From Planctomycetota bacterium (lineage in GTDB: Bacteria > Planctomycetota > Phycisphaerae > Sedimentisphaerales > Anaerobacaceae): a stretch of DNA of 49,252 bases. The notes under the pieces were generated by a model that was given only the letters and a program-made list of their open reading frames with translations, searched no databases and was not told the origin of the DNA. This document shows positions 24,512-42,173 of this stretch, in pieces. The position numbers were made by a program, and so were the translations under genes. Location: the NCBI GenBank assembly GCA_023481165.1, contig JAMCWO010000355.1, positions 1 to 49,252 of the forward strand, read 5' to 3'. The first letter of the stretch is position 1; each line of letters begins with the position of its first letter.

Positions 24512-27025
24512 CTACTTGGCAAGGGCCTCCCCGATTCTCTTGTCCAACTCGTCCAAACCGAAGCCCCCCGCGGCAACGACATGCTTCTTGTCCGTCAGGA
24601 TCAACCAGGGCAGAGACTTGATGCCCCAGGCGGCCTTCCGGGCGGCGAAATCTCCTCCGGCCAAGTGCCAAGGAAAGGCCGTGCAGTGAGCGTCAAGCTG
24701 AGCATAAAGCTCACGGGTACCCTCTGAGGCTTGTCGCGCGATGGTGATGATGCCCTTGGCCTCCAGGGCATCGGCTTTTCCGACTAACTCCGCCACGCAT
24801 TGGCGGGACGATGGCTGCCGGATGTCGATGAAGCACAGAAGGACCGGTCTGCCCTCGGTCAAGTCATGCGGCAGGTAGGAGCCAAGGTCAATCGGTTGAG
24901 TCAGGACCAGAGGTGGGGTCGAGGATTCGGGATCTTGAGGAAGGCCCTTGCCCAGGACGATCCTCACGTCCCGGGCCGGCAAACGGGTTCGCAGAAACGT
25001 GGCACCGCCAGGACTGTTTCCGGCATTCGCCTGGAACCTGACAGGCCCCTGGCACAGGCGGGTAAAAGTGAATTCCCCCCTCTCATTTGTCCTCGTGTCC
25101 TTGGGAGGCTGATCGTGAGCGCGCTCATCGCCCACGAAGACCGGGACCCGTGCCGCCGGCCGTCCCTGGGCGTCCACGACCACCCCGGACACGGACACCG
25201 TGGCTGGCGGCAGCCGAATCGTGCCGAGGTCTACCGACGCCCCAGCGGGGCCGTAGGGAAAGATCCGCAGGAAGTTGATCGGGCCGTAGCCCGCCGCGTT
25301 TAAGGTCAGTTCGTACTGCAGATACCTGTGCGGATACCTGGGAAGCCTGGGAATCGCCTTCATCTCGAACCGGCCCTGCGGATCGCTCAAGACGTCCACG
25401 CCCGTGTCACTCAGGCAGTAGTCGATCTCAAGCGTGAGAGACAGCCGCGCCGCCGGGATTGCGGTCCCATTGGGATCGCTGATGCGACCGGTCAAGGTCC
25501 AGGCCGGTCCCAGCGTGAGGTCCACCGGCCGGAATGAACCGTCCATCATCGCCGCGGCGGCCCGTCCGCTCTCCGGATCGCGGGCGACTACGAATTTGCG
25601 CTTGGTGCCAAAACGCGGGTCGTAGCCCAACTCGAACCTTCCCGCGGCGTCCGTCGGCAAGTGGTCGCCGAAGGGGTGGACGGTCACCACAGTATTGGCG
25701 GCGGGTCGGCCCTGCGGGTCCAGCACGCGGCCGGTCACCCGCGGGAAGATCGTCAACGGGGCTTCACAGCGAACCGTACGCCCATCGGTCACCGGCACCA
25801 TACCCTGCCATTGGGACAATGGTCCAGCCACGACAGCAAGCCTGTAAGTATCCGCCGGGACGCGGATGCGTGCCACGCCCGACGCGTCGCTGGTCGCAAA
25901 TTGGCCGTGGTTCCGCAACTGTCCGCCGGCGCTCAATTGGGCGTCGGCCACAGGGCGTCGGGTCCGTGCGTCCAGCACCGTCACCTCCAGAACACCCCCC
26001 TTGTCCACGCGAATCGTAGTTTCCGCGACCTGACCCGCCTTGACAGAGACCCTGCTTTCCAGGGCGGTCCACAGGGCAGGGCCTTGCTCGGGCGGCAGGA
26101 CGTCGATCCGATGCGGACCCTCCGGAAGGCCGGCAAAGGCAAACGCCCCCGTTCGATCCGAGGTGGTTCTGCGGACGACATACTGGCTCGTGCCACCTGC
26201 GCCCTTGTCGCCGGGGGCAGACGCTGCCCGCAACGATGGAGAGAGCACCGGGTTACGGCTCGTGATCTCCTCGCCCTGGGCGGAGCGAACCATCAAATCC
26301 ACGCCACCCACCGGCCGGCCCTGAGCATCGACCACCCGACCCCGGACCGTGCCTTCCCAGGGGAGCACCAGCCGGATATCCGGGTGCCACACCTCGTACT
26401 TATAGGACTTCCACTCCGGCGAGGGAAATGCGTAGCGGCTTCCGCCGCCCGGAGCTCGCACCCACAGGCCGGCACTGGCATCGGCCGACAACTGCTCGAA
26501 CCGGAACGTGCCCTGCGCATCCGTCGTGACCGTGAGCCATTGCGTGGGGCCGTCAATGGACGGCCGGGTGCCCCAGCCAAAACCCCAGGTATTCGTGGGC
26601 ATTGCCTGGACTTCGGCCCCCGCCACCGGTCTACCCTCCAGATCGACGACTTGCCCCGTCATGGTGCACGCCGGCTCCAGAACCAGCAAGATGTGCTTGC
26701 CGCTCAATGTACGCAGGCTGCTGTTCACCCGCTGCCAGCCATAGGCCAATCCGGGTTTTCGCGCTATGACGCAGGCATCCCGCTGCGTCGTCACGTCTGC
26801 CTCCAGGGCAAAGCGGCCTTGAGCATCGGTCCGGACAACGGGGCTGACCATCTTGGTGCCCTGTTCGAAGCCGTGAATCCGATATTGCTCGCACACGACC
26901 ACTTCCGCCCCTTGGACCGGCAGGGCCTTGTTGTCCACCACTCGGCCCGTGATCGTGAAGGCCCAACTGGATGCCGTCCAAATGCTCAGGGCGATCCAAA
27001 CGCCGATTCCAACAGCCTCTCGCAT
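24512..27025 (-). CDS. Large exported protein with carboxypeptidase-regulatory-like domains and thioredoxin-like tail
   Basis: An 837-residue protein. After a signal (GVWIALSIWTASSWAFTITG) there are about seven tandem beta-sandwich units of the CarboxypepD_reg type, each with a G-x-V-x-D-x-x-G-R-P-V-x-G core (GQVVDLEGRPVAGAEVQAM, GRVVDAQGRPVGGVDLMV, GVVVDAQGRPAARVPVFV). The last 120 residues look like a thioredoxin/redoxin fold: PVLLCFIDIRQPSSRQC replaces the usual CxxC with SxxC, and a cis-Pro-like SLPWLILTD follows. It probably acts at the cell surface; whether the tail is redox-active with a single Cys is open. GAGGGG before ATG 27025 supports the start. Confidence 0.75.
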   Translation of the reverse strand: MREAVGIGVWIALSIWTASSWAFTITGRVVDNKALPVQGAEVVVCEQYRIHGFEQGTKMVSPVVRTDAQGRFALEADVTTQRDACVIARKPGLAYGWQRVNSSLRTLSGKHILLVLEPACTMTGQVVDLEGRPVAGAEVQAMPTNTWGFGWGTRPSIDGPTQWLTVTTDAQGTFRFEQLSADASAGLWVRAPGGGSRYAFPSPEWKSYKYEVWHPDIRLVLPWEGTVRGRVVDAQGRPVGGVDLMVRSAQGEEITSRNPVLSPSLRAASAPGDKGAGGTSQYVVRRTTSDRTGAFAFAGLPEGPHRIDVLPPEQGPALWTALESRVSVKAGQVAETTIRVDKGGVLEVTVLDARTRRPVADAQLSAGGQLRNHGQFATSDASGVARIRVPADTYRLAVVAGPLSQWQGMVPVTDGRTVRCEAPLTIFPRVTGRVLDPQGRPAANTVVTVHPFGDHLPTDAAGRFELGYDPRFGTKRKFVVARDPESGRAAAAMMDGSFRPVDLTLGPAWTLTGRISDPNGTAIPAARLSLTLEIDYCLSDTGVDVLSDPQGRFEMKAIPRLPRYPHRYLQYELTLNAAGYGPINFLRIFPYGPAGASVDLGTIRLPPATVSVSGVVVDAQGRPAARVPVFVGDERAHDQPPKDTRTNERGEFTFTRLCQGPVRFQANAGNSPGGATFLRTRLPARDVRIVLGKGLPQDPESSTPPLVLTQPIDLGSYLPHDLTEGRPVLLCFIDIRQPSSRQCVAELVGKADALEAKGIITIARQASEGTRELYAQLDAHCTAFPWHLAGGDFAARKAAWGIKSLPWLILTDKKHVVAAGGFGLDELDKRIGEALAK

Positions 27026-28556: not shown

Positions 28557-28651
28557 TGGCGGAGGCGAATGGGAATCGAACCCACCCAGGGCCTTCTCGG
28601 CCCTACGCTGGTTTTGAAGACCAGGGGCACCACCAGGCACCAGTCACCTCC
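28557..28651 (-). tRNA. selC: tRNA-Sec (anticodon UCA)
   Basis: A 95-nt tRNA gene including the encoded 3' CCA. The anticodon stem CTGGT/ACCAG closes a loop with TCA. The acceptor stem starts GGAGGTGA and pairs over eight bases with TCGCCTCC (one U-G pair), the extended length typical of selenocysteine tRNA. There is a long variable arm (AGGGCC/GGCCCT) and a T-loop GTTCGATTC. The discriminator is G. It lies between selD and the small C-P-T-U selenoprotein gene on the same strand. Confidence 0.97.
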
Positions 28652-28740: not shown

Positions 28741-30378
28741 TCATGGTTGGCTCTTGATCTGCTCGTAAAACACCATTGCCGGTGAACCGGCAAAGCTGAT
28801 GCCCATCCAAGCGGCTTCGTCAATTTCCTCCTGGGAAAAACCTTTGCTCCGGGCATTCTTCAGGTGCATTTTCAGGCAAGGCTCGCACCGCAAGGCCACC
28901 GAAAGAGCAATGGCCATCGCCTGCTTTGTGTAGGCGTCCAGATTGCGGGGAGAGTTGGCCGCACGGAGGAACTGCTTGAACGCCGCCTTGACCTGATCCA
29001 TTTCCTGCGGCTTGTCTGCCGTGGCGAGGGCGTCCCGCCCTTGCGTTTGGGCGCCTGACGTCGAATCGCCGATGGCATCCGCACAACAAGGAACCTCTTC
29101 CATTGATGATTGATGATTGGTGATTGGTGATTGGGATGGCTCGGCGGCTTTGACGGGGCTGGGCGAGGAAATCTGACGTTTGCCTGTGGTCTCAAGGTGG
29201 ATCAGGCCCGAGCCTTTTCCTGCAATCTTGCCGATGATCGTCGCGGCTGATACGCCGCGCTCGTGGAGGGCTTCGAGAAGGTCCGCGGCCTTTTCCTGCT
29301 CTATCGCGATCAGCAATCCGCCGGAGGTCTGGGCATCATAGCATAGATCTACCATCTCCGGAGAAAGCGTCGAAGGCGCCACGACCCGCTCGCCGCATGA
29401 TTCCTTATTTCGCTCGATGGCACCGGGCAGAATTCCGGCGGCGGCGTATTCGAGCACGCCCTCGAAGAGAGGCAGGTCATCCCAGATGATCTGGACCTCC
29501 ACGCCGCTGGAGCGGGCCATTTCCGCCAAATGGCCCATGAGGCTGAAGCCGGTAACATCGGTGCAGGCGTGGGCGCCGAACTGGACCATCAGCTCGGAGG
29601 CCGTCTTGTTCAGGAAGCTCATCGACGCGGCGGCGGCCTTGATGCTCTGGGGCCGGGCCCGGTCGATCTGGGCCGCGAAGGCCACGATGCCGGTGCCCAG
29701 CGGCTTGGTGAGGATCAGCACATCACCCGGCCGCGCCGCGGCGTTGGTGACCACGCGATTCTTGTCGATGATCCCCGTGACGGCGAAACCGGCCTTGATC
29801 TCGGCATCATTGATACTGTGGCCGCCGACAATGGCGCAACCCGCTTCATTCATCTTGTCGATGCCGCCGGCCAAGATCTGAAACAAGGCCTCATCCGGGA
29901 TTTTTCGCGCTGGGAAGCCCACGATGGAAAGCGCGGTCAGCGGCGTGCCGCCCATCGCGTAGACATCGCTGACCGAATTGGCTGCGGCGATCTGGCCGAA
30001 GGTGTACGGATCGTCCACAGCGGGCGTGAACACGTCCACCGTCTGCACCAGCGCCTGGCCGTTGCCCATGTCGTAGATGCCGGCATCGTCCCCCGCCGGC
30101 ACGCCCACCAGCACGCGCGGATCGTCGATGGCAGGCAGGTCCGCCAGCACCTTTTTGAGGAAGGCCTGGTCGATCTTCGAAGCACAGCCCGCCTTCTCCA
30201 CGAGCTTCGTCAACCGCACCGTGCCGGTTGGGCTATCCAGCCGCTCCCCAGCGCAGGAGCAGACGTTCTTGGCCTTGAACAACGGGCAGGGGCACGGCTG
30301 CTTGGGATCGCAAATGCAGTGCCCCAGCCGGATCGACCGCTGCATCACCCGCTTTCGTCGTTCCATATTGACCATCAT
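28741..30378 (-). CDS. selD: Selenide, water dikinase with Cys-rich N-terminal extension and AhpD-like C-terminal domain
   Basis: A 545-residue protein, against about 345 for a usual SelD. Residues 1-50 form a Cys-rich extension (HCICDPKQPCPCP ... NVCSCAGE), perhaps a metal site. Residues about 55-390 are SelD: KAGCASKI holds catalytic Cys65 and Lys68, GVPAGDDAGIYD and SVSDVYAMGGTPL bind ATP and metal, and DAQTSGGLLIAI ends the domain. A low-complexity, repeat-derived linker (SQSPITNHQSS; QGRDALATA) leads to a C-terminal AhpD/carboxymuconolactone-decarboxylase-like domain with CEPC (498-501) followed by His505. The enzyme makes selenophosphate for SelA. Cys rather than Sec is used at the catalytic position. 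The C-terminal fusion may supply thiol reduction. ATG 30378 is used; ATG 30366 is possible. Confidence 0.93.
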   Translation of the reverse strand: MMVNMERRKRVMQRSIRLGHCICDPKQPCPCPLFKAKNVCSCAGERLDSPTGTVRLTKLVEKAGCASKIDQAFLKKVLADLPAIDDPRVLVGVPAGDDAGIYDMGNGQALVQTVDVFTPAVDDPYTFGQIAAANSVSDVYAMGGTPLTALSIVGFPARKIPDEALFQILAGGIDKMNEAGCAIVGGHSINDAEIKAGFAVTGIIDKNRVVTNAAARPGDVLILTKPLGTGIVAFAAQIDRARPQSIKAAAASMSFLNKTASELMVQFGAHACTDVTGFSLMGHLAEMARSSGVEVQIIWDDLPLFEGVLEYAAAGILPGAIERNKESCGERVVAPSTLSPEMVDLCYDAQTSGGLLIAIEQEKAADLLEALHERGVSAATIIGKIAGKGSGLIHLETTGKRQISSPSPVKAAEPSQSPITNHQSSMEEVPCCADAIGDSTSGAQTQGRDALATADKPQEMDQVKAAFKQFLRAANSPRNLDAYTKQAMAIALSVALRCEPCLKMHLKNARSKGFSQEEIDEAAWMGISFAGSPAMVFYEQIKSQP

Positions 30379-30530: not shown

Positions 30531-31313
30531 TTAATCTGAACCACGTTGCCTTCGCGCCAACAGTGCGGCGCCGAGCGCGCCGGTCATTTGCGGCTCCGGC
30601 GCTGGCGCGATCGGTCGGCCGAGGGCCGTCTGTAAAGCTGTCTCCATACCTGAGATGCGAGCCACGCCGCCGGTGAAAATGACCGGCGCTTCGATATTCC
30701 GCCCGGCCATGGCCACGATTCGTGCGGCGATGGCCGTCTGGACTCCCGCGACGATATCCTCACAGGCCCGGCCGGCCGCCAGCAGACCCGTAATCTCCGT
30801 CTCCGCGAACACCACGCACATACTGCTGATGACCGCAGGGTTGCGGCTCCGGGCTGCCATCGGCCCGAGATCGCCCAGAGACAGGCCCAGCCGGTCCGCC
30901 ACGACTTCCAGGAACCGCCCGGTCCCCGCCGCACAGCGATCGTTCATGGCGAAGTCCCGGACGCGGCCGTTTGTGTCCAGGCGCATCAGCTTACTATCCT
31001 GGCCGCCAATATCAATCACCGTCATCGCGGCGGGCACAAGCTGACGAACCCCAACGGCATGACAGGTGATTTCCGTGATCGTCGTGTCGGCGATCGATAC
31101 GGCGTTGCGGCCATACCCGGTGGCGACGATGCGACAAACCTGGGACCGGTCGACACCGGTCTGGGCCAGGACCTCTTCCAAGAGCCGGCAGGCGATCTTG
31201 TCCTGCTCGACCCCTTGGTCCACCTGCCCCTGGGCCACGACCCCTGGGCCATCCTCGCCGATCAAGACTACCTTGATCGCCCGCGAGCCGGCGTCAATTC
31301 CTGCATACATCAT
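30531..31313 (-). CDS. ATP-dependent activator of 2-hydroxyacyl-CoA dehydratase / double-cubane protein (HgdC-like)
   Basis: A 260-residue ASKHA-fold protein: YAGIDAGSRAIKVVLIG is the phosphate-1 loop, VIDIGGQDSKL the second. Cys127 in NDRCAAGTGRFLEV and Cys166 in SSMCVVFAETEI are the positions that hold the single 4Fe-4S cluster bridging the dimer in known activators. Such proteins use ATP to push electrons at very low potential into a dehydratase or a double-cubane-cluster protein. The ATG at 31313 overlaps the previous gene's TGA (ATGA), so the upstream open extension of 38 codons is rejected. It is the last gene of the five-gene operon that begins with the methyltransferase. Confidence 0.93.
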   Translation of the reverse strand: MMYAGIDAGSRAIKVVLIGEDGPGVVAQGQVDQGVEQDKIACRLLEEVLAQTGVDRSQVCRIVATGYGRNAVSIADTTITEITCHAVGVRQLVPAAMTVIDIGGQDSKLMRLDTNGRVRDFAMNDRCAAGTGRFLEVVADRLGLSLGDLGPMAARSRNPAVISSMCVVFAETEITGLLAAGRACEDIVAGVQTAIAARIVAMAGRNIEAPVIFTGGVARISGMETALQTALGRPIAPAPEPQMTGALGAALLARRQRGSD

Positions 31314-32692
31314 CTGCTTCTCCGATTCACAACGGTCTCCACCAGCGCCTCCAGCCGCGTGCGCAGCGACGGAGACACGGCATCCGTCAGAGGCGGCACC
31401 TCGATTTCCAGCACCGGCAGGCCACATTCCGCGCGGACGATCTCGCCGATGATCTCGCCTTCGAGGGCGCAGTGGCTTGCGCCCGGAATACGAGAGACAA
31501 TCACCGCTTCAGCGCCGAACCGGCGGATTTCCGCCTTGATCCGGGCTGCCCGGTCGGTCGCCGAGCCCACCATCGGGTCGGCCAAGGCCATGCGCGCCAG
31601 AGCCTCCATCGGCGGCACATCCGTCGGGATCGGGTCCAGGGCGTGGGCGAAGAGGTACTCCGTGCCGCAGATCCGCCCGCCACAATCTTCCAGAAGATTC
31701 ATCACCTGCAAGTCCGCCACGGGGTCTACCCAGAACATGCGGGCCGTGTCGGCTGTTCCATATCCTGTTCCGGCCGCCACACGCCGGTTGACCTCGTCCA
31801 GCAAATCCTGCAGTACGGCAATCGTCTCCTCCTGGTCCGAGCAGAAATGGATCGCCAGCATCTCCGCAATGAGCATCTCCAGGGCCGGTATCGGACAGGG
31901 TGTAGCCGTGAACGCCGCTTGGCGAAGCTCAGCGAGCAACCGGCGAATATGATTGGCCTTGGCGATCCCCCTGCTGAGCGTCCCTTCATCAATAACGCGC
32001 CCGGACAACTTCTCCAGAGCCAGCCGGATACGTTCCAGTTCGGACCTGACGAAGCGGACCAGGCTTGCCGGCGCCCGGAAGCCCCCGGGTAGTTGCACGC
32101 CGCCCTCGTTGTCCTCGGGCACTCGCCGATGCGGAATCTCCCACCAGAGAATTGGATAGCCCAAGCCGTTGAGCCGCTGGGCGATGGCGGAGAAATCGTC
32201 ACACGTCGCCCCCACGCTACATGTCAGCAGATCGGGGATGGGGAAATGGGCGCCGGTCACAAAGGCACCAAGCATGGCCCGCACCGGGCAGAACGACTCG
32301 TCAATCCCAAGCGAGTCGGCGATCTGCAGCAATCCGGAGTTGACCTCCATCACGCAGGGAATCCACCAGGCCCCATCCGGATAGAAGGCCACCAGATTGT
32401 CCAGACTAGAGGCCATCACGGGCACAGTGCCCAGATCCTTCATCGTTCCGACCAGCTTCTTGCCGGCATCCCGCGCGAGCTGCAGCCGGTCTTCTTCCGT
32501 CAATAGGAAGTCCCACAGCCGCAGGGCCGCGAGCGAATTGTCGAAACGCAGTTTGCGCAGACGCGTATCCCCCTCCGCCACGTGCCGGCCGAGCGGACCG
32601 CCGTAGGCCGGCTGTGGCACACCTGCCGCCCGGAGGCGCTCGTACGCATCATCCCACTCCCGCAACGCGATTTGCCGGGGCGTTTCGCTCAC
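31310..32692 (-). CDS. 2-hydroxyacyl-CoA dehydratase-family subunit (HgdB/BcrC-like)
   Basis: A 460-residue protein of the family that includes 2-hydroxyglutaryl-CoA dehydratase and benzoyl-CoA reductase subunits. Candidate cluster-ligand cysteines occur in ESFCPVRAMLG, DLLTCSVGATCDDF, LLEDCGGRICGTEYLF and PGASHCALEGE. The C terminus ends with GLPVLEIEVPPL, the usual closing strand of the family. It is coupled by ATGA overlaps to the gene before and the activator after. Since three distinct members of the family share one activator here, it may be one half of a heterodimer with the 327-residue protein. The substrate is not evident and no CoA-transferase or acyl-CoA dehydrogenase is near. Confidence 0.82.
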   Translation of the reverse strand: MSETPRQIALREWDDAYERLRAAGVPQPAYGGPLGRHVAEGDTRLRKLRFDNSLAALRLWDFLLTEEDRLQLARDAGKKLVGTMKDLGTVPVMASSLDNLVAFYPDGAWWIPCVMEVNSGLLQIADSLGIDESFCPVRAMLGAFVTGAHFPIPDLLTCSVGATCDDFSAIAQRLNGLGYPILWWEIPHRRVPEDNEGGVQLPGGFRAPASLVRFVRSELERIRLALEKLSGRVIDEGTLSRGIAKANHIRRLLAELRQAAFTATPCPIPALEMLIAEMLAIHFCSDQEETIAVLQDLLDEVNRRVAAGTGYGTADTARMFWVDPVADLQVMNLLEDCGGRICGTEYLFAHALDPIPTDVPPMEALARMALADPMVGSATDRAARIKAEIRRFGAEAVIVSRIPGASHCALEGEIIGEIVRAECGLPVLEIEVPPLTDAVSPSLRTRLEALVETVVNRRSR

Positions 32693-33672
32693 CGCAGCGC
32701 CTCCATAAAGGCATGAATCCGGTTGCGGACACGCGGGCTATCCATCTCCCCCCGCCCTTCACTATCAAGGCGAAGCATCGGCAGCTTGATCCACTCTTTT
32801 ATCCGCTCGAACTCGGCATGCCACTTGTCGCACCAGACGTAGTGATGCAGTACGAGACCACGTGCGCTGTGGCTTGCCAGCTTCTCTCGCAGCCATTGGT
32901 AAAACTCGCTGTTCGGCCGGCGCGAGGGATCGGGGATGTGGAAATACGCCCGCGCAAGATTCACCAACGGATCGCTGCTCAAGTACCGGTCGTCAAGGCT
33001 GCGTATTGTCCGGTCTCCTGTCTCGGTGCCGTCGAACGCGATCTGCCCTCCGCATTCCAGGATGACGCGAAACAGGACCTGATCTCGCTCCATCAGGGGA
33101 CCGCCGATGACCCCAATAGGCACACGCCGGGTACCCTCTAAATCGCGTTCTGATCCACCACCCATTGACTGGAATGTCTGTTGCCAGACCCAAGATAGAG
33201 GCCCGGGCGGTAGCTGGCTGGGATAGAGTGCAGGATAAAGATCCGTGAGTTCCTTGTTGACGGAGTATCGACGTATTTCTTGCGTGAGCTTCTCCCGATC
33301 GGGAGCGCAACCGCCCAGGCGGACAAGGAATCGGCCGAAGCGTTCCAACTCGCCCAGGTACAATTGGCGAGCCGTCACGGTCTGCCAGGTGCTCGGCACG
33401 TTCAGCAGAAAAACGGGCACATTGATCCGGCGGACCAGCAGATCGAAGATGCGACGCATCTGATCGCACATCGTCGTGACGACGACGCCGTCCACATCCT
33501 CGCTCGCCGCCACGTCGTTGGCAAAGGCACGGGCGTACGGACAGAGACCCTCGATCTGCGGAATCGTCGCCGTCCCCTCCACCGGCCGCGGAATCAGCCG
33601 GCGCGGCTGCAAACCATGCGCCGCGATCCACTCGGCCGGGACATAGGGACACGTATAGACGATGGTCTTCAT
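32689..33672 (-). CDS. 2-hydroxyacyl-CoA dehydratase-family subunit, shorter type
   Basis: A 327-residue member of the HgdB-like family. Conserved segments: YTCPYVPAEWIAAHGLQPRR at the N terminus, EGLCPYARAFANDV and TTMCDQMRRIFDLL with ligand cysteines, VIGGPLMERD, ILECGGQIAFDGTETGDR, and LHHYVWCDKWHAEFERIKEW near the end. AGGA eight bases before ATG 33672 supports this start over an upstream alternative at 33696. It overlaps the 460-residue partner by four bases (ATGA). The family binds 4Fe-4S clusters and needs the activator encoded downstream. Confidence 0.8.
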   Translation of the reverse strand: MKTIVYTCPYVPAEWIAAHGLQPRRLIPRPVEGTATIPQIEGLCPYARAFANDVAASEDVDGVVVTTMCDQMRRIFDLLVRRINVPVFLLNVPSTWQTVTARQLYLGELERFGRFLVRLGGCAPDREKLTQEIRRYSVNKELTDLYPALYPSQLPPGPLSWVWQQTFQSMGGGSERDLEGTRRVPIGVIGGPLMERDQVLFRVILECGGQIAFDGTETGDRTIRSLDDRYLSSDPLVNLARAYFHIPDPSRRPNSEFYQWLREKLASHSARGLVLHHYVWCDKWHAEFERIKEWIKLPMLRLDSEGRGEMDSPRVRNRIHAFMEALR

Positions 33673-33686
33673 TCGGTCTGTCCTGC

Positions 33687-35030
33687 TTACGCACACGCCC
33701 TTTGCCGGACGGTCTCGAATAAGGCCTCGACCCGCAGGGCGATCCGGGCGGAATCGCCGGGCGAGTAGTCCGTCTCGATCCGCAGGTACGGCAGGCCCAG
33801 TTCCTGCTCCGCCAGCTTCTTGATGAAATATGATTCAACATCGTACGTGAGACACGCTTGCCAGATCAGGTCGATCACACATTGGACGCGATATTCCCGC
33901 GCCAAATGCCGCAGGATATCCAGCCGTCGGCTGTTCTTCGTCATCACCGAGCACGGCAGACGGAAGTACTTCTCGGCTAAGGCGACGATGGGGTCGGCCG
34001 CCGTCTCGTCCACATCTTCCAGGATCGGCTTGAGTCCCGTGCAGTTGTCCATGCACACGATCAGTCCACCATTGGATTCGATGATCTCGACCACCCGCTC
34101 GGCCCCATGCACCACCGGCACGCCGGTCATCAGCACGCGAGCCTTGTAGGGTGGGCTGTGCCCACCATTTGTCGTTGAGTTCACCCCTTGGAGATTGGTG
34201 GGCACAGCCCACCCTACGTATGACTCCAGTGCCCGGGTGTACTGGGCGAAATCGGCGCACATTCCGGAGATATTGCTCTTGAATTGGAGCAACTGCCGGC
34301 CGGTCAGCGGGGGATGGTCGGATTTCATCAAGTCGGCCAACCGCCGTCGCAGGGCCCGCTCGCGATTCATCGTCCGGATCGCCTGCCGGATCTTCTCGTC
34401 CGTGATCGTGACGCCAAAAGCCTCTTCGAGCCGGGCCTTGAGCTTGCGCAGCTCGCTGATCCAGTGGGCCAAGGCATCGGCATCATCCGGCTTTTGCGGC
34501 AGTTCCAGCACGTGCATCGGACGCGTCTCGGCCATCAGCTCATACATCTTCTTCTTGCCGTCGCAGGTGGTCTCGGCAACAACCAGGTCCGCCATTTCCA
34601 GAAACGGATTGGCCTTCTGGACATGATACCCGTAGGTCGATTTGATGAGAGGACAGAGGTTGGCCGGCAGGTGTTCTTCGGCCGGCCCGATCATCTCGGC
34701 CGAGCCGCCGCACAGGCAGACCGGCACCGCCTCCGCCGCCATGATCAATTCCCGCGGCGTGTACTCGCACATAATCCCAACAATGTGCTTGCCCTGGGCC
34801 TTGGCGTCGGTGGCATAAGCCAGGCAATTCGGGATCATGTTGTCGAACCAGGCCAGCGGCTGGCCGTTCGTAATGACGCCGTCAGGCGTTTCTTGATATG
34901 CCCTTACGGGCACACCGGGCTCCCAAACGCGACTCGTTGCGTTTGGGGACCCGCTACGAACCGGTTGCGGCGGATGACATGGATCGCTGGCATTGATCTT
35001 GACGTCCTTCTTATCGCAGCACTTTCCCAT
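33687..35030 (-). CDS. Double-cubane-cluster-type protein (DCCP/HgdB-like) carrying two repeat-encoded inserts
   Basis: A 447-residue protein starting MGKCCDKKDV. The family region has EYTPRELIMAAEAVPVCLCG, PANLCPLIKSTYG, VVAETTCDGKKKMYELMAE, GGLIVCMDNCTG and VIDLIWQACLTYDVESYF; the spread of cysteines matches double-cubane-cluster proteins, which take electrons from an HgdC-like ATPase to reduce small substrates. Two segments are foreign: residues about 23-55 (PVRSGSPNATSRVWEPGVPV then RAYQETPDGV) and about 270-295 (VGWAVPTNLQ ... GGHSPPYKA). Both are encoded by dispersed palindromes and leave the frame open. Four bases separate it from the methyltransferase gene. Whether the inserts are tolerated in the active protein is unknown; both lie between conserved blocks. 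Confidence 0.85.
   Translation of the reverse strand: MGKCCDKKDVKINASDPCHPPQPVRSGSPNATSRVWEPGVPVRAYQETPDGVITNGQPLAWFDNMIPNCLAYATDAKAQGKHIVGIMCEYTPRELIMAAEAVPVCLCGGSAEMIGPAEEHLPANLCPLIKSTYGYHVQKANPFLEMADLVVAETTCDGKKKMYELMAETRPMHVLELPQKPDDADALAHWISELRKLKARLEEAFGVTITDEKIRQAIRTMNRERALRRRLADLMKSDHPPLTGRQLLQFKSNISGMCADFAQYTRALESYVGWAVPTNLQGVNSTTNGGHSPPYKARVLMTGVPVVHGAERVVEIIESNGGLIVCMDNCTGLKPILEDVDETAADPIVALAEKYFRLPCSVMTKNSRRLDILRHLAREYRVQCVIDLIWQACLTYDVESYFIKKLAEQELGLPYLRIETDYSPGDSARIALRVEALFETVRQRACA
34146..34217. repeat. Palindromic repeat GTAGGGTGGGCTGTGCCCAC inserted in the double-cubane gene
   Basis: The arms GTAGGGTGGGCTGTGCCCAC and GTGGGCACAGCCCACCCTAC are perfect complements around a 32-base centre. 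The insert encodes about 24 residues and preserves the frame. Confidence 0.85.
34866..34950. repeat. Two nested dispersed repeats near the 5' end of the double-cubane gene
   Basis: 34866-34914 is an inverted copy of the GTAGTGTGCCCGTAAGGGCA element (GTTCGTAATGACGCCGTCAG ... CCCTTACGGGCAC). Next to it, 34919-34950 is a CCCAAACGCGACTCGTTGCG TTTGGGG palindrome. Both are translated in frame. Confidence 0.8.
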
Positions 35031-35034
35031 CTCA

Positions 35035-35838
35035 TCACCTCTTGCGTGCGACGAACAGCCCCTGGGCGATCTTGCCTGCGTGGGCCAACTGTTGTATGAA
35101 GGCCATCTCCCCGGCCATGGCCTGCATCAGATTCTGATCGAAGCCAATGATCTTCAGCGCATCATAGGTCAACTGCATGCCGAGCATGTTCAGATACAGG
35201 TCCACGTACGGCGCGAAGCGGCCGGTGTCCCTGGCGACGAGCACCTCGCAGCCATTGGCCTTCAGCAGGTCGCAGTAGCCGCCGATGGTCAGGATGTTCG
35301 GGAACTTCATGAACCTCAGGTATCGCTGGGCCTCCGAGGGCGGAAACTCCTTGTCCCCCTCGACCCAGTCGGTGAACGCGATCGTCCCGCCCGGCTTGAC
35401 GATCCGCGCTGCCTCGGAGATCAGTTTGGCCTTGGCCACCACGTAGCACCAGGCGTCTTCGCCCCAAACGAAATCGGCGCTGCCGCTCGCCAAGCCGCTG
35501 CTGGTCACGTCGCCTAAGGTGAACTGGATTCTGTCGGTCAGACCCGCCTGCTGGCAGCGCTGCCGGCCTTGTTCGACGACCGTTTGGGTGGCGTCCACAC
35601 CGCGCATACGTGCCACGCTGCGGAACCGAACAAGAAAGCGCATACCCGCCCCGCTGCAACAGCACAGATCGACACCCTGAGTCCCTGCGCCAATACCGGC
35701 AGTCTCGGCCAGATCCGCGGAGGAGACAAAGCCCCCGATATGGATCTGCTCGCCCATGATCAACTCCCACAGCCGCCCTTCCGGCCCACCGTACACCGCC
35801 TGTACATCGGCCAACCCGATTCCCGGAACACTCTTCAT
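35035..35838 (-). CDS. Class I SAM-dependent methyltransferase
   Basis: A 267-residue protein. The SAM site is GVDLCCCSGAGMRFLVRFRS (motif I, with an unusual Cys run) and VDATQTVVEQGRQRC; LGDVTSSGLASGSADFVWGE and IVKPGGTIAFTDWVEGDKEF are later motifs. It most resembles small-molecule methyltransferases of the sarcosine/dimethylglycine or UbiE-like group. ATG 35838 is preceded by GGAG at eight bases. It is the first gene of the operon with the double-cubane protein (four-base gap). That linkage suggests that it modifies a substrate or product of the dehydratase-like system. A terminator for the selenoprotein genes lies just upstream, so the operon probably has its own start or depends on read-through. 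Confidence 0.85.
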   Translation of the reverse strand: MKSVPGIGLADVQAVYGGPEGRLWELIMGEQIHIGGFVSSADLAETAGIGAGTQGVDLCCCSGAGMRFLVRFRSVARMRGVDATQTVVEQGRQRCQQAGLTDRIQFTLGDVTSSGLASGSADFVWGEDAWCYVVAKAKLISEAARIVKPGGTIAFTDWVEGDKEFPPSEAQRYLRFMKFPNILTIGGYCDLLKANGCEVLVARDTGRFAPYVDLYLNMLGMQLTYDALKIIGFDQNLMQAMAGEMAFIQQLAHAGKIAQGLFVARKR

Positions 35839-35862
35839 AATCTCGTCTCCACATGCGGCCAA

Positions 35863-35924: not shown

Positions 35925-36167
35925 CTACTCCAGGGAGTGCCACGTCCTTTCATGCCTGACTTCGAAGGGCCCCAGGTCGATCTCGATCTGCACCTGGAAC
36001 TTGCCCTTGAAGTCCGATGGCACTCGCCACGAGTACCGGCAGGTGCCACCTCAACCATACTGGAATTTGTCGACCACGGGCGCACGGCCCGAGAGGATGC
36101 CCCACGTCCCTCCGTCAAGGACAAGAAGCCCGCACAGGACAGCCGAATAGGGCTTCCTTACAGCCAT
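35925..36167 (-). CDS. Selenoprotein B of the YG-U-GG family (UGA at 36051-36053 read as Sec39)
   Basis: Reading through UGA gives an 80-residue protein: a start MAVRKPYSAVLCGLL with moderate hydrophobicity, then DKFQYG-U-GGTCRYSWRVP, then a strand-rich tail GKFQVQIEIDLGPFE and the ending ERTWHSLE before TAG. GGAGGG six bases before ATG 36167 is a strong ribosome binding site. The upstream paralogue has the same core and ending (TWHSL), at about 70% identity after the UGA, so selection acts on sequence on both sides of the UGA; this excludes UGA as the normal stop. The frame before UGA is too short (38 codons) to be called as a gene. I do not know this family; Sec39 and Cys43 form a U-x-x-x-C pair that could be redox or metal active. 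Confidence 0.85.
36019..36037 (-). promoter_or_regulatory. SECIS hairpin of selenoprotein B
   Basis: GGTACTCG pairs with CGAGTGCC (one G-U pair) around the triloop TGG. The stem starts 13 nt after the UGA and the loop 21 nt after it, identical to the copy in selenoprotein A. Compared with that copy, one pair changes from G-C to U-A, a compensatory change. Confidence 0.82.
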
Positions 36168-36197
36168 ACGGTCCCTCCGCTACGGCTGCGCCGGTCG

Positions 36198-36746
36198 TTA
36201 CAGGGAGTGCCAAGTCTGATCCTGTTTGGCCTCGATCGGGCCGAGATTGACGTCGACCAGGACCTGGAACTTGCCCGTAAAATCGTTGGGTACGCGCCAC
36301 GCGTACCGGCAGGCGCCACCTCAGCCATACTGGAAATCACCCTGGGTGACCACCTGGCCCGCCTCGTTGAGGATCCTCAACTTGGGGGCCGCGATCGGCG
36401 TTCCGTTTTTCTTGACGACCGGCCGGTACTGCTCACCGGCCTGGCCTTGCAGGACCAGCCCAATCGACATCTCGCGGTCCGCCACCCGCTGAACGTTGGC
36501 CGACACGAGGATCGGCGGACCGGCCTTCGGGCCGCCGGGCTCCGTCGAGACGATGGCTCCGCCGGTCGCGTCGAGCGACCACGACACACCGTTCGCATCG
36601 GTGCGGGACAGCGACGCCGCTGGCGCCCCGCCCGGCGCGGGGACTGTGGTTGTGGACTGAGGCTTCTGCTTTTGGAGGAAGAGGAAGGCCAGAAGCAGAA
36701 CGAGCACAACGATCCCGGCCAGACGCAGTTGATCTGTTGTTTTCAT
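36198..36746 (-). CDS. Selenoprotein A of the YG-U-GG family (UGA at 36321-36323 read as Sec142)
   Basis: The frame from ATG 36746 (AGGG upstream) gives one N-terminal membrane helix (LAGIVVLVLLLAFLFLQ), a Pro/Thr linker, a beta-rich domain with LRILNEAGQVVTQ, then GDFQYG-U-GGACRYAWRVP and GKFQVLVDVNLGPIE, ending TWHSL before TAA 36200; 182 residues in all. Stopping at UGA would cut the conserved motif in half. The domain would face the outside of the cytoplasmic membrane. Sec142 and Cys146 are the likely active pair. A paralogue follows 30 bases downstream and a truncated third copy lies at 41.5 kb. I infer a redox or metal-binding role on the envelope; the sequence does not show the substrate. 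Divergent from selA, with a shared 260-base intergenic region. Confidence 0.9.
36289..36307 (-). promoter_or_regulatory. SECIS hairpin of selenoprotein A
   Basis: A perfect 8-bp stem, GGTACGCG against CGCGTACC, closes the triloop TGG. The stem begins 13 nt after the UGA and the loop 21 nt after it; G at the second loop position agrees with the general bacterial SECIS model. Confidence 0.85.
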
Positions 36747-37007: not shown

Positions 37008-38417
37008 ATGGATGTACAGATCCAACAACTGATGCGCCGGGTCCCCTCCGTGGACGCGGTATTGAGAACACCGGAGTTGGAAGCCCTGGCGGCCGAATGT
37101 GGGCGACAGACGGTGGCGGAGGCGGTCCGGGCGGCAATCGACGAGGTCCGCCGACAGCTTCTGGCCCAGCCCACGCCTGACGTGGAGGAGCCGGCCATTC
37201 AAAGCCGCATCGTGGCAGCAGCAAAAAGCCGACTGGAGGCGGTGATGAAGCCGTTCTACCGCCGGGCGGTCAATGCCACGGGAATCATCCTGCATACCGG
37301 CCTGGGACGGGCGGTCCTGCCGGCCAAGGCGCTCGACCAGATCCAGCAGACGCTGCAAAGCTACTCGCTGATCCAGGTGGACCGGGAAACCGGCAAGCGG
37401 TCCCGGCGGGATGAGCGAATCGAAGAGTTGCTCCGGCGGCTGACCGGGGCGGAGGCCGCGACGGTCGTGAACAATAACGCCGCCGCGACCGCGATTGTGC
37501 TCAATACCGTGGGCAAAGGCAAGGAAGTGATCGTCTCGCGGGGCCAACTCGTCGAGATCGGCGGGTCTTTTCGCCTGCCGGAAGTGATGGCGTTCAGCGG
37601 GGCCAGACTGGTCGAGGTCGGCACGACCAATAAAACCCACCCGCGCGACTATGAGAACGCCATTACGGAGAACACCGCCGCCCTCTTGCGTGTGCATCCA
37701 AGCAACTACAAGATTCAGGGGTTCGCCGCGGAGGTCCCGCCCGACGAGATGGTGGCCATCGCCCACAAGCACAACCTGGTGATGATCGACGACGTGGGCG
37801 CGGGCGCGCTGGTCGATTTCTCCCAGTTCGGATTCGAGCCGGAGCCGATGCTCCCGAACTCGATCCGGCAGGGCGCGGACATCGTCACGTGCAGCGCCGA
37901 CAAACTGATCGGCGCCTCGCAGGGCGGCCTGATTCTAGGGAAGAAGGCCCTGATTGACGCCGTGCGCAAGAACCAGTTCGCCCGGATCGTCCGCGTGGGC
38001 AAGCTCACGCTGGCCGTCCTAGAGGCGACGCTGAAGCTGTTCCTCGATGAAAGCGTCGCCCTGCGCGAGGTGCCCACGCTCCAAATGCTCCGGCGCAGCG
38101 CCGAGGAAATCCGCGATCACGCTGAACGATTGGCGGCGCAGATTCGCGATGGAACCGTCGCCGCCACAGTAGGTACTGCGAACGGCTTCTCTGAGATGGG
38201 CAGCGGCTCGTTGCCGACGCAGAACCTGGCGACGACCCTGGTGACGATCACGCCCCAGAAGATCAGCGTGGATGTGCTGGCCCAGCGCCTGCGGCTTCAC
38301 GAGACTCCGGTCTTTGCACGGATTCAGAATGACCAAGTCCTGCTCGACCCCCGCACGCTGCGGCCGGGCGATGATGAGATCGTCGTCAAGGCAGCGACAG
38401 CGAGCCTTGGCGATTAA
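37008..38417 (+). CDS. selA: L-seryl-tRNA(Sec) selenium transferase
   Basis: A 469-residue PLP enzyme of the normal SelA length. The N-terminal tRNA-binding domain (residues 1-80) is followed by NATGIILHTGLGRAVLP, RRDERIEELLRRLTGAEAA, VVNNNAAATAIVLNT, HPSNYKIQGFA and the PLP lysine Lys299 in SADKLIGASQGG. It converts Ser-tRNA(Sec) to Sec-tRNA(Sec) using selenophosphate from SelD. ATG 37008 has only a weak TGGA upstream. A dispersed-repeat cluster separates it from selB by about 140 bases. The gene is divergent from the selenoprotein pair that needs its product. Confidence 0.97.
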   Translation: MDVQIQQLMRRVPSVDAVLRTPELEALAAECGRQTVAEAVRAAIDEVRRQLLAQPTPDVEEPAIQSRIVAAAKSRLEAVMKPFYRRAVNATGIILHTGLGRAVLPAKALDQIQQTLQSYSLIQVDRETGKRSRRDERIEELLRRLTGAEAATVVNNNAAATAIVLNTVGKGKEVIVSRGQLVEIGGSFRLPEVMAFSGARLVEVGTTNKTHPRDYENAITENTAALLRVHPSNYKIQGFAAEVPPDEMVAIAHKHNLVMIDDVGAGALVDFSQFGFEPEPMLPNSIRQGADIVTCSADKLIGASQGGLILGKKALIDAVRKNQFARIVRVGKLTLAVLEATLKLFLDESVALREVPTLQMLRRSAEEIRDHAERLAAQIRDGTVAATVGTANGFSEMGSGSLPTQNLATTLVTITPQKISVDVLAQRLRLHETPVFARIQNDQVLLDPRTLRPGDDEIVVKAATASLGD

Positions 38418-38541
38418 AGTAGCACGGGCATCCCCCGCCTGCGCAGGGGCGGGTTCTGCCCGTGAGTCCCACGGGCGTCTCGCCCGTGGAGAAAGCAGGG
38501 CCAGGAGGCCCTGCGACGCATGGGCAAGATGCCCATGCTAC
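38418..38541. repeat. Palindrome cluster between selA and selB
   Basis: Begins GTAGCACGGGCATCCCCCGC and contains CACGGGCGTCTCGCCCGTG and ATGGGCAAGATGCCCATG, ending CTAC. It is a compound version of the element at 13498-13645 and would give three consecutive hairpins in the selAB transcript. Confidence 0.8.
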
Positions 38542-38556
38542 GACAAGATACGTCTT

Positions 38557-40569
38557 ATGGAAGTACAGCAGCACAACGTGACCCTCGGCACCGCGGGGCA
38601 TATCGACCACGGCAAGACCGCCCTGGTCAAGCTTCTGACCGGCTGCGAGACGGACCGGCTCAAGATTGAGAAAGAGCGCGGCATGTCCATCGAGTTGGGC
38701 TTCGCGCCGTGTGTCATTTCCGAGATCGAGGTCGGCATCGTCGATGTCCCCGGCCACGAGAATTTTGTCAAGACGATGGTGGCCGGGGCCACCGGGATCG
38801 ATGGGTGCATCCTCGTCGTGGCGGCCGACGACGGCGTGATGCCGCAGACCCGCGAGCACATGGATATCCTCACGCTTTTGGGCGTCGAGCACGGGATCGT
38901 GGCGCTGACCAAGGTCGATGCCGTCCCGCCGGAACGCACCCAGGTAGCGACCCAGGAAATTCGGGGCTTCTTGACCGGCACGTTCCTACAGGATGCCCCT
39001 ATCCTGCCGATCTCCAACATCACCGGTCAGGGCTTCGAGGAATTCTACGAGGCCCTCAAAGCCCTGGTGGCGGCGATCACGCCGAAAACAGCCCAGGGCA
39101 TCTTCCGCGTGCCGGTCGAGCGGGCGTTCTCCGCCAAAGGTTACGGAACGATCGTGGCGGGAATTCCCGCTTGCGGGGCCGTGGAGGTGGGCGAGGAGCT
39201 GGTCCTCTTGCCGCAAATGGCAAAGGGGCGTCTGCGGTCGGTCCAGGTCTACGGCCGGGACAGCACGCGGGCACTGGCCGGCCAGTGTGCCGCCCTGAAT
39301 GTCCCGCAGTGGGACCCCAAAGCGGTCGAGCGCGGCAATGTCATCACGATCAGCGATTACTTCGCCCCGCACCAGTGGTACCTGTGCGAGTTGAAGCTGC
39401 TGGATCAGGAAAAGAGCGACCTCAAGAACGCCGCCCAGGTCAAGTTCCACACCGGCACCTCGGAAACGCCCGCCAGCGTCTACCTGTTCCAGGACAGCGT
39501 CCTCAAGCCTGGCCGGCAATGCCTGGTCCAGCTCTTTCTGGACCACCCCGTCGTCGCCGGACCGCGCGACCATTTCATCATTCGCTCTCTCTCCCCGACG
39601 CGCACCCTCGGCGGCGGCCTCATCATCGAGGCCATCGAGAAACGCCTCAAACGCACGCATCCGGACGTTCTCAAGGAAATCGCCGAGCGGGCGCAGGCCG
39701 TCGCAAGGCCGAGGGATTTTGTCGAATATTGCGTCAAGACCGCGGAGGCGTTCGCGGCGGATGAGAGGCAGATCTCCCTGCGCAGCAAGATGCCGCCCAA
39801 GGAACTGGCGGCCCTGTTGGCGGAACTGGTCCAGGGCGGCCGCCTTCTGTCGGTCAGCGGCAAGAGCTATATCCATGTGGACACGGCCGAGCGCGTTCAG
39901 CAGCATCTGTTGGACACTGTTCGCGTGTTCCACAGCAAAAGGCCCGAGAGCCCCGGCATCAGTCGCGATCTGCTCCTGACGGAATTCTCCCGTGGCGAAG
40001 CCATCGTGTCGCGGGCGTCCCGCCCTCGGTTCGAAGGCGAGACGCCTTCGACACACGCGGGCAAGATGCCCGCGACCCAAGGGACGCCCTCGTCGCTGAG
40101 AAAAGATGTCTTCGAGACTTTGCTGGCGCGGATGCTGCCGGCGGGCCGGCTGGTCGAGCGCAAGGGCTTTCTGGCCTTGCCGGAGCATCGGGAGCAATTC
40201 AACAATGCCGAGCAGCAACTGCTCCAGAACGTGGAAGCGCTGTTTCGCAGTCATCTGTTCGACCCACCCGGCCCCCAGGAGGTCGCCGACCAGATGCGGG
40301 TCCCGCCGCCCCAGGTGCAGCGTGTCCTGCGGATTCTCACGGAGCAGAAGCAACTAGTCCGGGTCGATCAGGACCTGCTGTTTCACGCGGAGGCGGTGGC
40401 GACCGCGAAAGAGCGACTGGTCTCCTATATCCAGCAGAACGGCGGCCTGGAGAGCGTCAAATTCAAGTACCTGCTGGACACCAGCCGCAAGTACGCGATT
40501 CCGCTCCTGGACTACTTTGACAAGATCGGCGTCACCCGCCGGGTGGGTTATACCCGACTTTTGAAGTGA
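38557..40569 (+). CDS. selB: Selenocysteine-specific translation elongation factor
   Basis: A 670-residue protein. The GTPase domain has GHIDHGKTALVK (P-loop), ERGMSIELGFA (switch I), DVPGHENFVKTM (G3) and LTKVD (G4). Domains II and III follow, then winged-helix domains at the C terminus that bind the SECIS loop (DPPGPQEVADQMRVPPPQVQ; SVKFKYLLDTSRKYAIPLLD). It brings Sec-tRNA(Sec) to UGA codons followed by a SECIS hairpin. ATG 38557 is the family-conserved beginning; the open frame upstream to 38272 overlaps selA and the repeat cluster. Residues about 485-510 (RASRPRFEGETPSTHAGKMP) are encoded by an inserted palindrome within the winged-helix region. Confidence 0.97.
   Translation: MEVQQHNVTLGTAGHIDHGKTALVKLLTGCETDRLKIEKERGMSIELGFAPCVISEIEVGIVDVPGHENFVKTMVAGATGIDGCILVVAADDGVMPQTREHMDILTLLGVEHGIVALTKVDAVPPERTQVATQEIRGFLTGTFLQDAPILPISNITGQGFEEFYEALKALVAAITPKTAQGIFRVPVERAFSAKGYGTIVAGIPACGAVEVGEELVLLPQMAKGRLRSVQVYGRDSTRALAGQCAALNVPQWDPKAVERGNVITISDYFAPHQWYLCELKLLDQEKSDLKNAAQVKFHTGTSETPASVYLFQDSVLKPGRQCLVQLFLDHPVVAGPRDHFIIRSLSPTRTLGGGLIIEAIEKRLKRTHPDVLKEIAERAQAVARPRDFVEYCVKTAEAFAADERQISLRSKMPPKELAALLAELVQGGRLLSVSGKSYIHVDTAERVQQHLLDTVRVFHSKRPESPGISRDLLLTEFSRGEAIVSRASRPRFEGETPSTHAGKMPATQGTPSSLRKDVFETLLARMLPAGRLVERKGFLALPEHREQFNNAEQQLLQNVEALFRSHLFDPPGPQEVADQMRVPPPQVQRVLRILTEQKQLVRVDQDLLFHAEAVATAKERLVSYIQQNGGLESVKFKYLLDTSRKYAIPLLDYFDKIGVTRRVGYTRLLK
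40007..40080. repeat. Palindromic repeat inserted in frame in selB
   Basis: Contains TCGCGGGCGTCCCGCCCTCG, a CGAAGGCGAGACGCCTTCG palindrome and CGCGGGCAAGATGCCCGCG. About 24 codons between two winged-helix segments derive from it, and the frame is preserved. Confidence 0.8.
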
Positions 40570-40605: not shown

Positions 40606-40863
40606 ATGAGATTCGGCAAAATGGCAGCCACCTTCCTCGCCGTAGCGGCATTGTCTGTGGTGTTGGTGCTCCTGCTGAGCCCGAGTTGAAACAGCGCATG
40701 GCGAGCCCTTGAAGGGTTCCTCCTAATGACGTGCCCTCCGCTGGCCCTGGTGCTGAGCGTGATCGGCATCATGAGCGACGACCGCAAGACGTATGCAATT
40801 GCGATGCTCCTGGTCTCGGGAATCATAACGCTCTCGGTCTTTTGGCTTTTCCTCGGCTATTGA
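40606..40863 (+). CDS. Small two-to-three-helix membrane selenoprotein downstream of selB (UGA at 40687-40689 read as Sec28)
   Basis: ATG 40606 with AGGGG eight bases upstream opens MRFGKMAATFLAVAALSVVL-VLLLSPS, then TGA, and the same frame continues as U-NSAWRALEGFLLMTCPPLA, then LVLSVIGIMSDDRKTYAIAM and a last helix ending WLFLGY before TGA 40863; 85 residues in all. The part after the UGA is a typical small membrane protein with a DDRK loop between helices. A hairpin begins 13 nt after the UGA (next entry), the same spacing as in the YG-U-GG family. The gene begins 37 bases after selB on the same strand, so it is probably co-transcribed. The alternative is a 27-residue peptide followed by an independent ORF from ATG 40726. 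I do not recognise the family. Confidence 0.6.
40703..40719 (+). promoter_or_regulatory. Candidate SECIS hairpin after UGA 40687
   Basis: GAGCCCT pairs with AGGGTTC (one G-U pair) around the triloop TGA. The stem starts 13 nt and the loop 20 nt after the UGA. G is at the second loop position, as in the other candidate hairpins of this window. Confidence 0.55.
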
Positions 40864-41508: not shown

Positions 41509-41814
41509 CTGCTCGTTCTGACCTACGGACCCAAGCCCGGCTCCGCGTCCTTTACAGGCGCACGCGGCAGTGCGCCACGGTTTGCCGTCTACCAGGGCCA
41601 ACGGCAGATCGCCGCCGGGCGCTTCAAGTCTGGCTGAGGCGGCGCCTGGTCGTACTCGTGGCGAGTACCTTTTGGAGCCTCCGGTCCCCTGCAAATCGTC
41701 GCCTCCTGCGACCTTGGCACTCTCGGCCCCGCTACAGGAGAGTCGGTCCTCTACTACTGGCATTGGTATTACAGTGCCCCAAGTTCGGCCTGGTGGGCGT
41801 CCTGGCGCCTGTGA
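41509..41814 (+). pseudogene. 5'-truncated third member of the YG-U-GG selenoprotein family (UGA at 41635-41637)
   Basis: The plus-strand frame LLVLTYGPKPGSASFTGARG-SAPRFAVYQGQRQIAAG, then RFKSG-U-GGAWSYSWRVP and PLQIVASCDLGTLGP, aligns over its length with selenoprotein A (APKLRILNEAGQVV..., then GDFQYG-U-GGACRYAWRVP). The signature W-R-V-P and the D-L-G motif are kept; the Cys four residues after Sec is Trp here. Upstream of about 41509 homology ends, no start codon is available, and an opposite-strand gene occupies the space, so the 5' part was lost or the copy uses a non-standard start. The frame ends at TGA 41812-41814, overlapping the ATG of the next membrane protein. It may be a remnant; the intact hairpin argues that decay is recent. 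Confidence 0.68.
41652..41668 (+). promoter_or_regulatory. SECIS hairpin of the truncated third selenoprotein copy
   Basis: A perfect 7-bp stem, GTACTCG against CGAGTAC, closes the triloop TGG. The loop begins 21 nt after the UGA, exactly as in the two copies at 36 kb. The stem shares the U-A pair variant of selenoprotein B but keeps A-U where B has G-U. Confidence 0.75.
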
Positions 41815-42173
41815 TGGTCCTGGCGTACGCCGGGGCCAGGTGGATGTCACGCCGCACGCATCGCCCAGCCAGATTTCTTCTCCTGCTGGCCGCTTGGTCA
41901 GTGGCGCTCTGTACGGGAGGTATGCCTCTGTGGTTCTTGTTGGGGTCTGTAATGACCGCCAACTGGCCAAACCATCTCCTTCCCGCATTGGGGGTATTTC
42001 TTCTCGCCGGCGCGATCTCGGGAGTGTGCGTCTTTCTGGTTTCTCTTTTCTTCGTCCTTGTCGGTCTGTGGAGCCCCTTGTTCCGGCCGCGCCTGTTCGC
42101 GTGCCTGGCATTGCCGCCTGGATCACCTCCGGTGAACAATGTCACGATGGCAGATCCATCCGAGGAAGGGTAG
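41814..42173 (+). CDS. Small membrane protein of unknown function
   Basis: From ATG 41814, which overlaps the TGA of the truncated selenoprotein frame (TGATG), the frame encodes 119 residues with three hydrophobic helices (FLLLLAAWSVALCTGGMPLW; LLPALGVFLLAGAISGVCVF; LVSLFFVLVGLWSPLF) and a short polar tail. The frame is open and hydrophobic further upstream (LLLALVLQCPKFGLVGVLAP), so a TTG start at 41763 would add a fourth helix. No strong ribosome binding site is seen; coupling to the preceding frame is likely. Not recognised as a known family. Confidence 0.5.
   Translation: MVLAYAGARWMSRRTHRPARFLLLLAAWSVALCTGGMPLWFLLGSVMTANWPNHLLPALGVFLLAGAISGVCVFLVSLFFVLVGLWSPLFRPRLFACLALPPGSPPVNNVTMADPSEEG

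Follow-up and report, generated by a model that had tools for sequence, protein, structure and literature searches.

A stretch of planctomycete DNA (the window, 49,252 nucleotides in length) very probably encodes members of a new family of selenocysteine (Sec) proteins, which may act as extracytoplasmic selenol redox centres and are represented here by one intact gene (U1), a shortened copy (U2) and the relic of a third (U3; Table 1). The in-frame UGA of U1 is almost certainly read as Sec, to judge from a SECIS hairpin downstream of it and from the adjacently encoded SelA, SelB, SelD and tRNA-Sec. This decoding, which an earlier note on the same DNA had put forward as the best explanation, is argued for by the fixation of UGA at the site (131 of 136 domain instances), a covarying bSECIS hairpin, the nesting of selA-positive relatives within those that carry the family, a Sec-to-Cys change in genus g64 and dN/dS values that are alike on both sides of the codon.

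Table 1 Features of the window that bear on the Sec family
Feature	Position	Strand	Remarks
Candidate partner	24512..27025	-	Secreted; CarboxypepD_reg repeats and C-terminal degenerate thioredoxin-like domain
tRNA-Sec	28557..28651	-	UCA anticodon
SelD-type (AIRS) protein	28741..30378	-	Fused to C-terminal carboxymuconolactone decarboxylase/AhpD-type domain; adjoins tRNA-Sec
Intrinsic terminator	35899-35870	-	13-bp; directly 3′ of U2 stop
U2, shortened copy	35925..36167	-	80 aa, Sec at residue 39 (U39); frame 36167-35928, TAG stop 35927-35925
bSECIS hairpin of U2	36019..36037	-	GGUACUCG-UGG-CGAGUGCC; differs from that of U1 by compensatory changes
In-frame TGA (Sec codon) of U2	36051..36053	-
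U1, intact selenoprotein gene	36198..36746	-	182 aa when TGA is read as a residue, Sec at residue 142 (U142); TAA stop 36200-36198
bSECIS hairpin of U1	36289..36307	-	GGUACGCG-UGG-CGCGUACC; loop begins 22 nt past UGA
In-frame TGA (Sec codon) of U1	36321..36323	-
Plain open reading frame of U1	36321..36746	-	141 aa, ends at the TGA
selA, L-seryl-tRNA(Sec) selenium transferase	37008..38417	+	Divergent from U1
selB, Sec-specific elongation factor	38515..40569	+
U3, degenerate third copy	~41521-42173	+	Multi-membrane-helix class; located by protein search

U1 and U2 share the motif FQYG-U-GG[A/T]CRY[A/S]WRVP as well as the ending DLGP[I/F]E...TWHSL, with the codon context FQYG-TGA-GGACRYAWRVP in U1 and FQYG-TGA-GGTCRYSWRVP around codon 39 of U2, and are 56% identical over the 52 residues compared. 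The earlier note had singled out these adjacent frames by the TGA inside FQYG-U-GG[A/T]C and the homology that resumes up to the common ending, and the sequence and this identity agree. It was also right that standard annotation would truncate the first frame at 141 residues, that the second has a ribosome binding site (GGAGGG, read in the sequence before the ATG of U2) and that a terminator follows the second stop. Its description of two tandem selenoproteins stands in part: U1 is an intact gene, with an N-terminal hydrophobic anchor followed by the Sec-bearing β-sandwich domain, U2 is a shortened copy, and a degenerate third copy is present besides. Directly 3′ of the U2 terminator lies a Methyltransf_11 methyltransferase gene (35035-35841, reverse strand), which may be a relative of the arsenite methyltransferases.

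A relative (G008) has a 473-residue selenoprotein at the position that corresponds to U2, and the end of that protein shares 92% identity with the final 50 residues of U2, whose start resembles the signal segments of that gene type; on these matches U2 is probably an internal-deletion remnant of a longer neighbouring paralogue. An independent small gene is less likely, as other short forms (L005, L070 and L079) lack homologous starts. U3, which carries a TGA at 41635-41637 within SGUGGAWSYSWRVP, lacks a clear start, has a frame shift in its membrane part and is a relic. A tolerant search for the motif pattern across the whole 6 Mb genome found U1 and U2 as its sole matches and the reversed-pattern control over the same assembly found none, so the two copies are not a product of chance. 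The window also encodes a PSD1 domain, which is typical of planctomycetes and occurs in 0 of 14 control genomes.

Homologues are numerous and nearly uniform at the Sec site. The U1 query has matches in 33 of 99 relatives, almost every one read through a single TGA, and a profile search places the family in 63 of 161 genomes of the order and in 59 of 392 genomes spread across the phylum, with as many as 11 copies per genome. After duplicate removal, the fetched loci comprise 136 distinct domain instances, of which the five without TGA at the Sec column are two Cys (TGC), one Gly (GGA) and two truncated sequences; two more Cys forms, one Arg and a Tyr whose alignment is doubtful come from additional fetched loci. 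The earlier note had proposed looking for homologues with UGA or Cys at the site and searching planctomycete genomes with a profile, and both undertakings yielded what its reading predicts. Its signature, YG-U-GG-x-C-x-Y-x-W-R-V-P, does describe a shared motif, less its Cys: many members, though not all, have a Cys four residues on from Sec, and it is absent in UGGGG branches, which rules out universal Sec–Cys pairing, and part of the YSWRVP conservation has another source (below). Because remote forms read YGUGGGGWASVK or GGCUGGGF, the core of the motif, as judged from the aligned sequences, is U-G-G. For scanning genomes for the family, the motif takes the form TAYGGNTGAGGN. The corrected motif pattern gave four matches in viral contigs, none of them a family member, and a tblastn search with P0001 gave no match in plasmids or viral contigs.

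The full Sec machinery that the earlier note had reported beside the frames (SelA, SelB, SelD and tRNA-Sec) is indeed encoded within the window, and across relatives the family and selA are closely linked. A family gene lies beside selA in many genomes; of the 99 relatives, 26 have selA and every one of these carries the family, and selA occurs in 0 of 66 family-negative relatives (Fisher p=8e-18). Phylum-wide, selA occurs in 50 of 59 family-positive genomes and in 196 of 333 others (p 1e-4), and several members of the phylum have a TGA-bearing family gene with no selA seen. Among the seven family-positive relatives without selA, G084 and G090 have Cys at the Sec site; G001 and G024, in which no selA was found, have SelB; G019 has a family gene with upstream stops (L074) and no selA or selB found in its genome, likely a relic left after machinery loss; and G034 (incomplete) and G047 (87%, unexplained) are TGA-bearing with no selA seen. 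Within genus g64, TGA is retained in G514, which has selA, and G084, G090, G513 and G516, the four members that lack selA and whose site is readable, have Cys. In a maximum-likelihood tree of 121 domains, the Cys forms group as a single clade that lies among Sec forms, and the simplest reading of these sequences is a single Sec-to-Cys change in g64 after loss of the machinery.

Other genes in these neighbourhoods may also be connected with selenium. A BadF-type ATPase and three genes resembling the D component of 2-hydroxyglutaryl-CoA dehydratase (HGD-D) lie beside the Sec genes of the window (30531-35030, reverse strand), and HGD-D and SelD-type genes are likewise close to selA and a Sec gene in G060 (L046), which makes a conserved selenium locus possible. 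On the 3′ side of selB, a hydrophobic frame (40608-40862, forward strand) contains TGA codons (SPS-TGA-NSAW, LGY-TGA-GV) that must be read through for it to be open, and has no family motif; it is probably a relic or chance. In G031, the region that holds Sec-family genes (L048) also encodes a deiodinase-like selenoprotein (2834-2295, reverse strand, continuing past its TGA; SSYT-U-PPFR), which is a positive control for Sec decoding.

The hairpin downstream of UGA is conserved in position, structure and covariation. In 95 of 131 Sec sequences its loop begins exactly 22 nt after UGA, mostly with a stem of 7–8 bp and a UGG loop, features that agree with the published bSECIS model (PMC13188914). 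The isolated hairpin of U1 has a folding energy of -11.8 kcal/mol, and isolated hairpins range from -8.3 to -11.8 kcal/mol. The mean stem score is 18.8, compared with 13.0 in synonymous-codon shuffles that used codon usage taken from outside the hairpin; taken one at a time, 52 of 131 sequences reach p<=0.05, and the strength of the result lies in the comparison across sequences. In rows picked by protein motif only, pairing is 91–97% at each of the seven positions. Among 74 distinct rows, 94.6% of cells pair, compensatory changes occur in five of the seven pairs, and covariation scores 0.308 versus 0.126 after shuffling, with 0 of 500 shuffles as high in pairing or covariation and no register slide coming near the observed value. 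Sequences with another protein motif retain a hairpin at about the same place, and the hairpin is absent from the three non-Sec (Cys, Gly) homologues tested. Local minimum-energy folds of U1 and U2 in isolation favour pairings other than this hairpin; the upstream partners in those folds would be covered by the ribosome. Rfam holds no matching family. Given the hairpin, part of the conservation of the YSWRVP segment is imposed by the RNA.

A hydropathy screen and Pfam matches divide the family into four types of architecture: short, anchored, U1-like proteins, together with versions of ~470 residues; proteins with an N-terminal Sec domain followed by 7–8 membrane helices with conserved Cys; proteins of ~510 residues that are anchored in the membrane at the C terminus; and proteins of 950–1283 residues with F5/8C and LamG domains. 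Signal or anchor segments occur throughout the family in the hydropathy screen. The β-sandwich of U1 is thus in all likelihood outside the cytoplasm, held by the N-terminal membrane segment, as the earlier note had concluded from the anchor of the first copy; the segments found family-wide and the LamG and F5/8C domains of long members point the same way. AlphaFold2 models of the three window copies show an all-β domain without helices (mean pLDDT 60.6, best blocks 73–88), with the Sec loop between two strands at pLDDT <50. Their best structural matches are α-2-macroglobulin MG domains (Foldseek 1.2e-3; Z 8.8, rmsd 2.1, 76 residues), and PF01835 (MG2) matches 8 of 43 members weakly, none over any cut-off. 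On these models and alignments, the likely fold is a macroglobulin/Ig-like β-sandwich whose flexible glycine loop, [FY]G-U-GG, carries Sec.

These features suggest how the proteins might work. The SECIS hairpin just 3′ of UGA, with SelA, SelB, SelD and tRNA-Sec, would direct Sec insertion into U1, and the N-terminal membrane segment would anchor the product with its β-sandwich exposed outside the cytoplasm. There, Sec in the glycine loop could act as the nucleophile of a selenol redox centre, forming a selenenylsulfide with the Cys four residues on where that Cys is present, and a membrane-embedded paralogue or thioredoxin-like partner may reduce the selenenylsulfide. We hold this assignment, the likeliest of those considered, tentatively, at a little short of an even chance; because some branches lack the Cys after the motif, a Sec–Cys pair would not be the mechanism everywhere. 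Sec may instead be decoded and serve, not in redox catalysis, but as a ligand that binds or sequesters soft metals or metalloids outside the cell. Some members lack the second Cys and UGGGG variants retain Sec alone, the copper proteins CopC and FetP are among the weak structural matches, and a methyltransferase gene adjoins U2; yet the alignment contains no conserved set of further His, Cys or Met ligands, and the structural matches are weak and common to unrelated Ig-like folds, which leaves a ligand role credible though unlikely.

Slightly less probable again is that the secreted proteins of a neighbouring family have the Sec domain as their common partner, which would reduce, dock or covalently handle their conserved C-terminal domain. 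Members of this family have CarboxypepD_reg repeats and a thioredoxin-like C terminus in which CGPC is replaced by QRPS, the window member having QPSSRQC where CGPC is expected. Their genes, present at L048, L053, L046 and L049 among other loci, follow Sec operons, reach 26–41 copies in some genomes (G026, G035 and G059) and co-occur with the Sec family, with both families in 24 genomes, one only in 9 and 6, and neither in 60 (p=2e-10). Some genomes nonetheless have one family only, and shared ecology or genome size could give the same correlation. A wider and similarly doubtful proposal is a selenium-dependent cell-surface system in which the Sec proteins, including members fused to 7–8 membrane helices with conserved Cys, would be a common hub for the redox chemistry or covalent handling of dozens of degenerate-thioredoxin proteins that are secreted, with Sec as the residue ancestral to an entire domain family rather than an upgrade from Cys.

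Sec decoding itself has been weighed against the reading that UGA is a true stop, with proteins that end at residue 141 (or 38) and a downstream similarity that reflects fossil coding or RNA conservation. Standard gene finding does end at UGA, and conservation beyond it is in part that of an RNA hairpin. However, when four selA-adjacent orthologues are pooled, the 60 codons that precede UGA have a dN/dS of 0.22/0.76 and codons 15–40 after it, which lie beyond the hairpin, one of 0.15/0.48, and purifying selection is similar on both sides. Long members moreover run for hundreds of residues past UGA, through 7–8 membrane helices or LamG and F5/8C domains, and Cys homologues read through, making a true stop highly improbable. 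Homologues that end at UGA and a lack of selection after it, which the earlier note had named as what would speak against its reading, were both looked for and neither was borne out. A general reassignment of UGA in the lineage, for example to Trp or Gly, has a negligible chance: code tables with UGA as an amino acid exist, but 10 of the 16 window genes with Pfam support end in TGA, Trp stands at the site in no homologue, and tRNA-Sec, SelA and SelB are present.

Comparison with databases and with openly available publications supports regarding this Sec family as previously uncatalogued. In a study of planctomycete selenoproteins, the main text deals with known families such as FdhA and FmdB (PMC4807772). 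Pfam and NCBIfam (June 2026) have no model for the Sec domain, and no motif in a 2026 review table of 119 prokaryotic selenoprotein families fits; the text of the review does not mention planctomycetes. The earlier note had not recognised the family either. Families described by Haft and Tolstoy in 2025 are reportedly included among the 119. According to the deep-Sep study, selenoproteins without Cys homologues, of which only GrdA was known earlier, may be filtered out at the homology step (PMC12013277).

Like the family described here, GrdA (glycine reductase selenoprotein A) has nearly or wholly no Cys homologues and is missed by searches for Cys/UGA pairs; unlike it, GrdA has a CxxU motif and is part of a reductase complex rather than an extracytoplasmic β-sandwich with GUGG, and we found no similarity between them. 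The hypothetical protein DG of deep-Sep (NF049953) has a GUxG motif formally compatible with GUGG, but its model matches none of the members scanned. The DUF1573 selenoprotein (PF07610, UGC motif) also has an Ig-like domain outside the cytoplasm, in which Sec is close to glycine, but differs in motif, position and architecture, and PF07610 matches none of the 43 members scanned. The family may share its predicted fold with the MG domains of α-2-macroglobulin (Z 8.8 to E. coli A2M), whereas the Sec family has no bait region or thioester and its Sec loop is new. SoxY offers an analogy only, a glycine-flanked chalcogenol (the GGCGG swinging-arm Cys) on an Ig-like fold; its arm is C-terminal, no sequence relation is shown and SoxYZ is low in the Foldseek list. 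Nor do the proteins belong to the thioredoxin-like selenoprotein class, given an all-β model, U-x-x-x-C instead of UxxC or CxxU, and no thioredoxin Pfam match.

The analysis adds a large, phylum-wide selenoprotein family that discovery methods based on Cys are expected to miss because it has almost no Cys homologues, and whose existing annotations are likely truncated or missing. Its strongly conserved bSECIS with a 3-nt loop is material for the study of planctomycete SelB. Placing Sec on a predicted macroglobulin-type β-sandwich outside the cytoplasm, with up to 11 copies in one genome, the family may point to a new selenium-dependent process outside the cell, and it raises the testable question of which extracellular chemistry depends on Sec to such a degree that a move to Cys is seen in a single lineage, after loss of the machinery.
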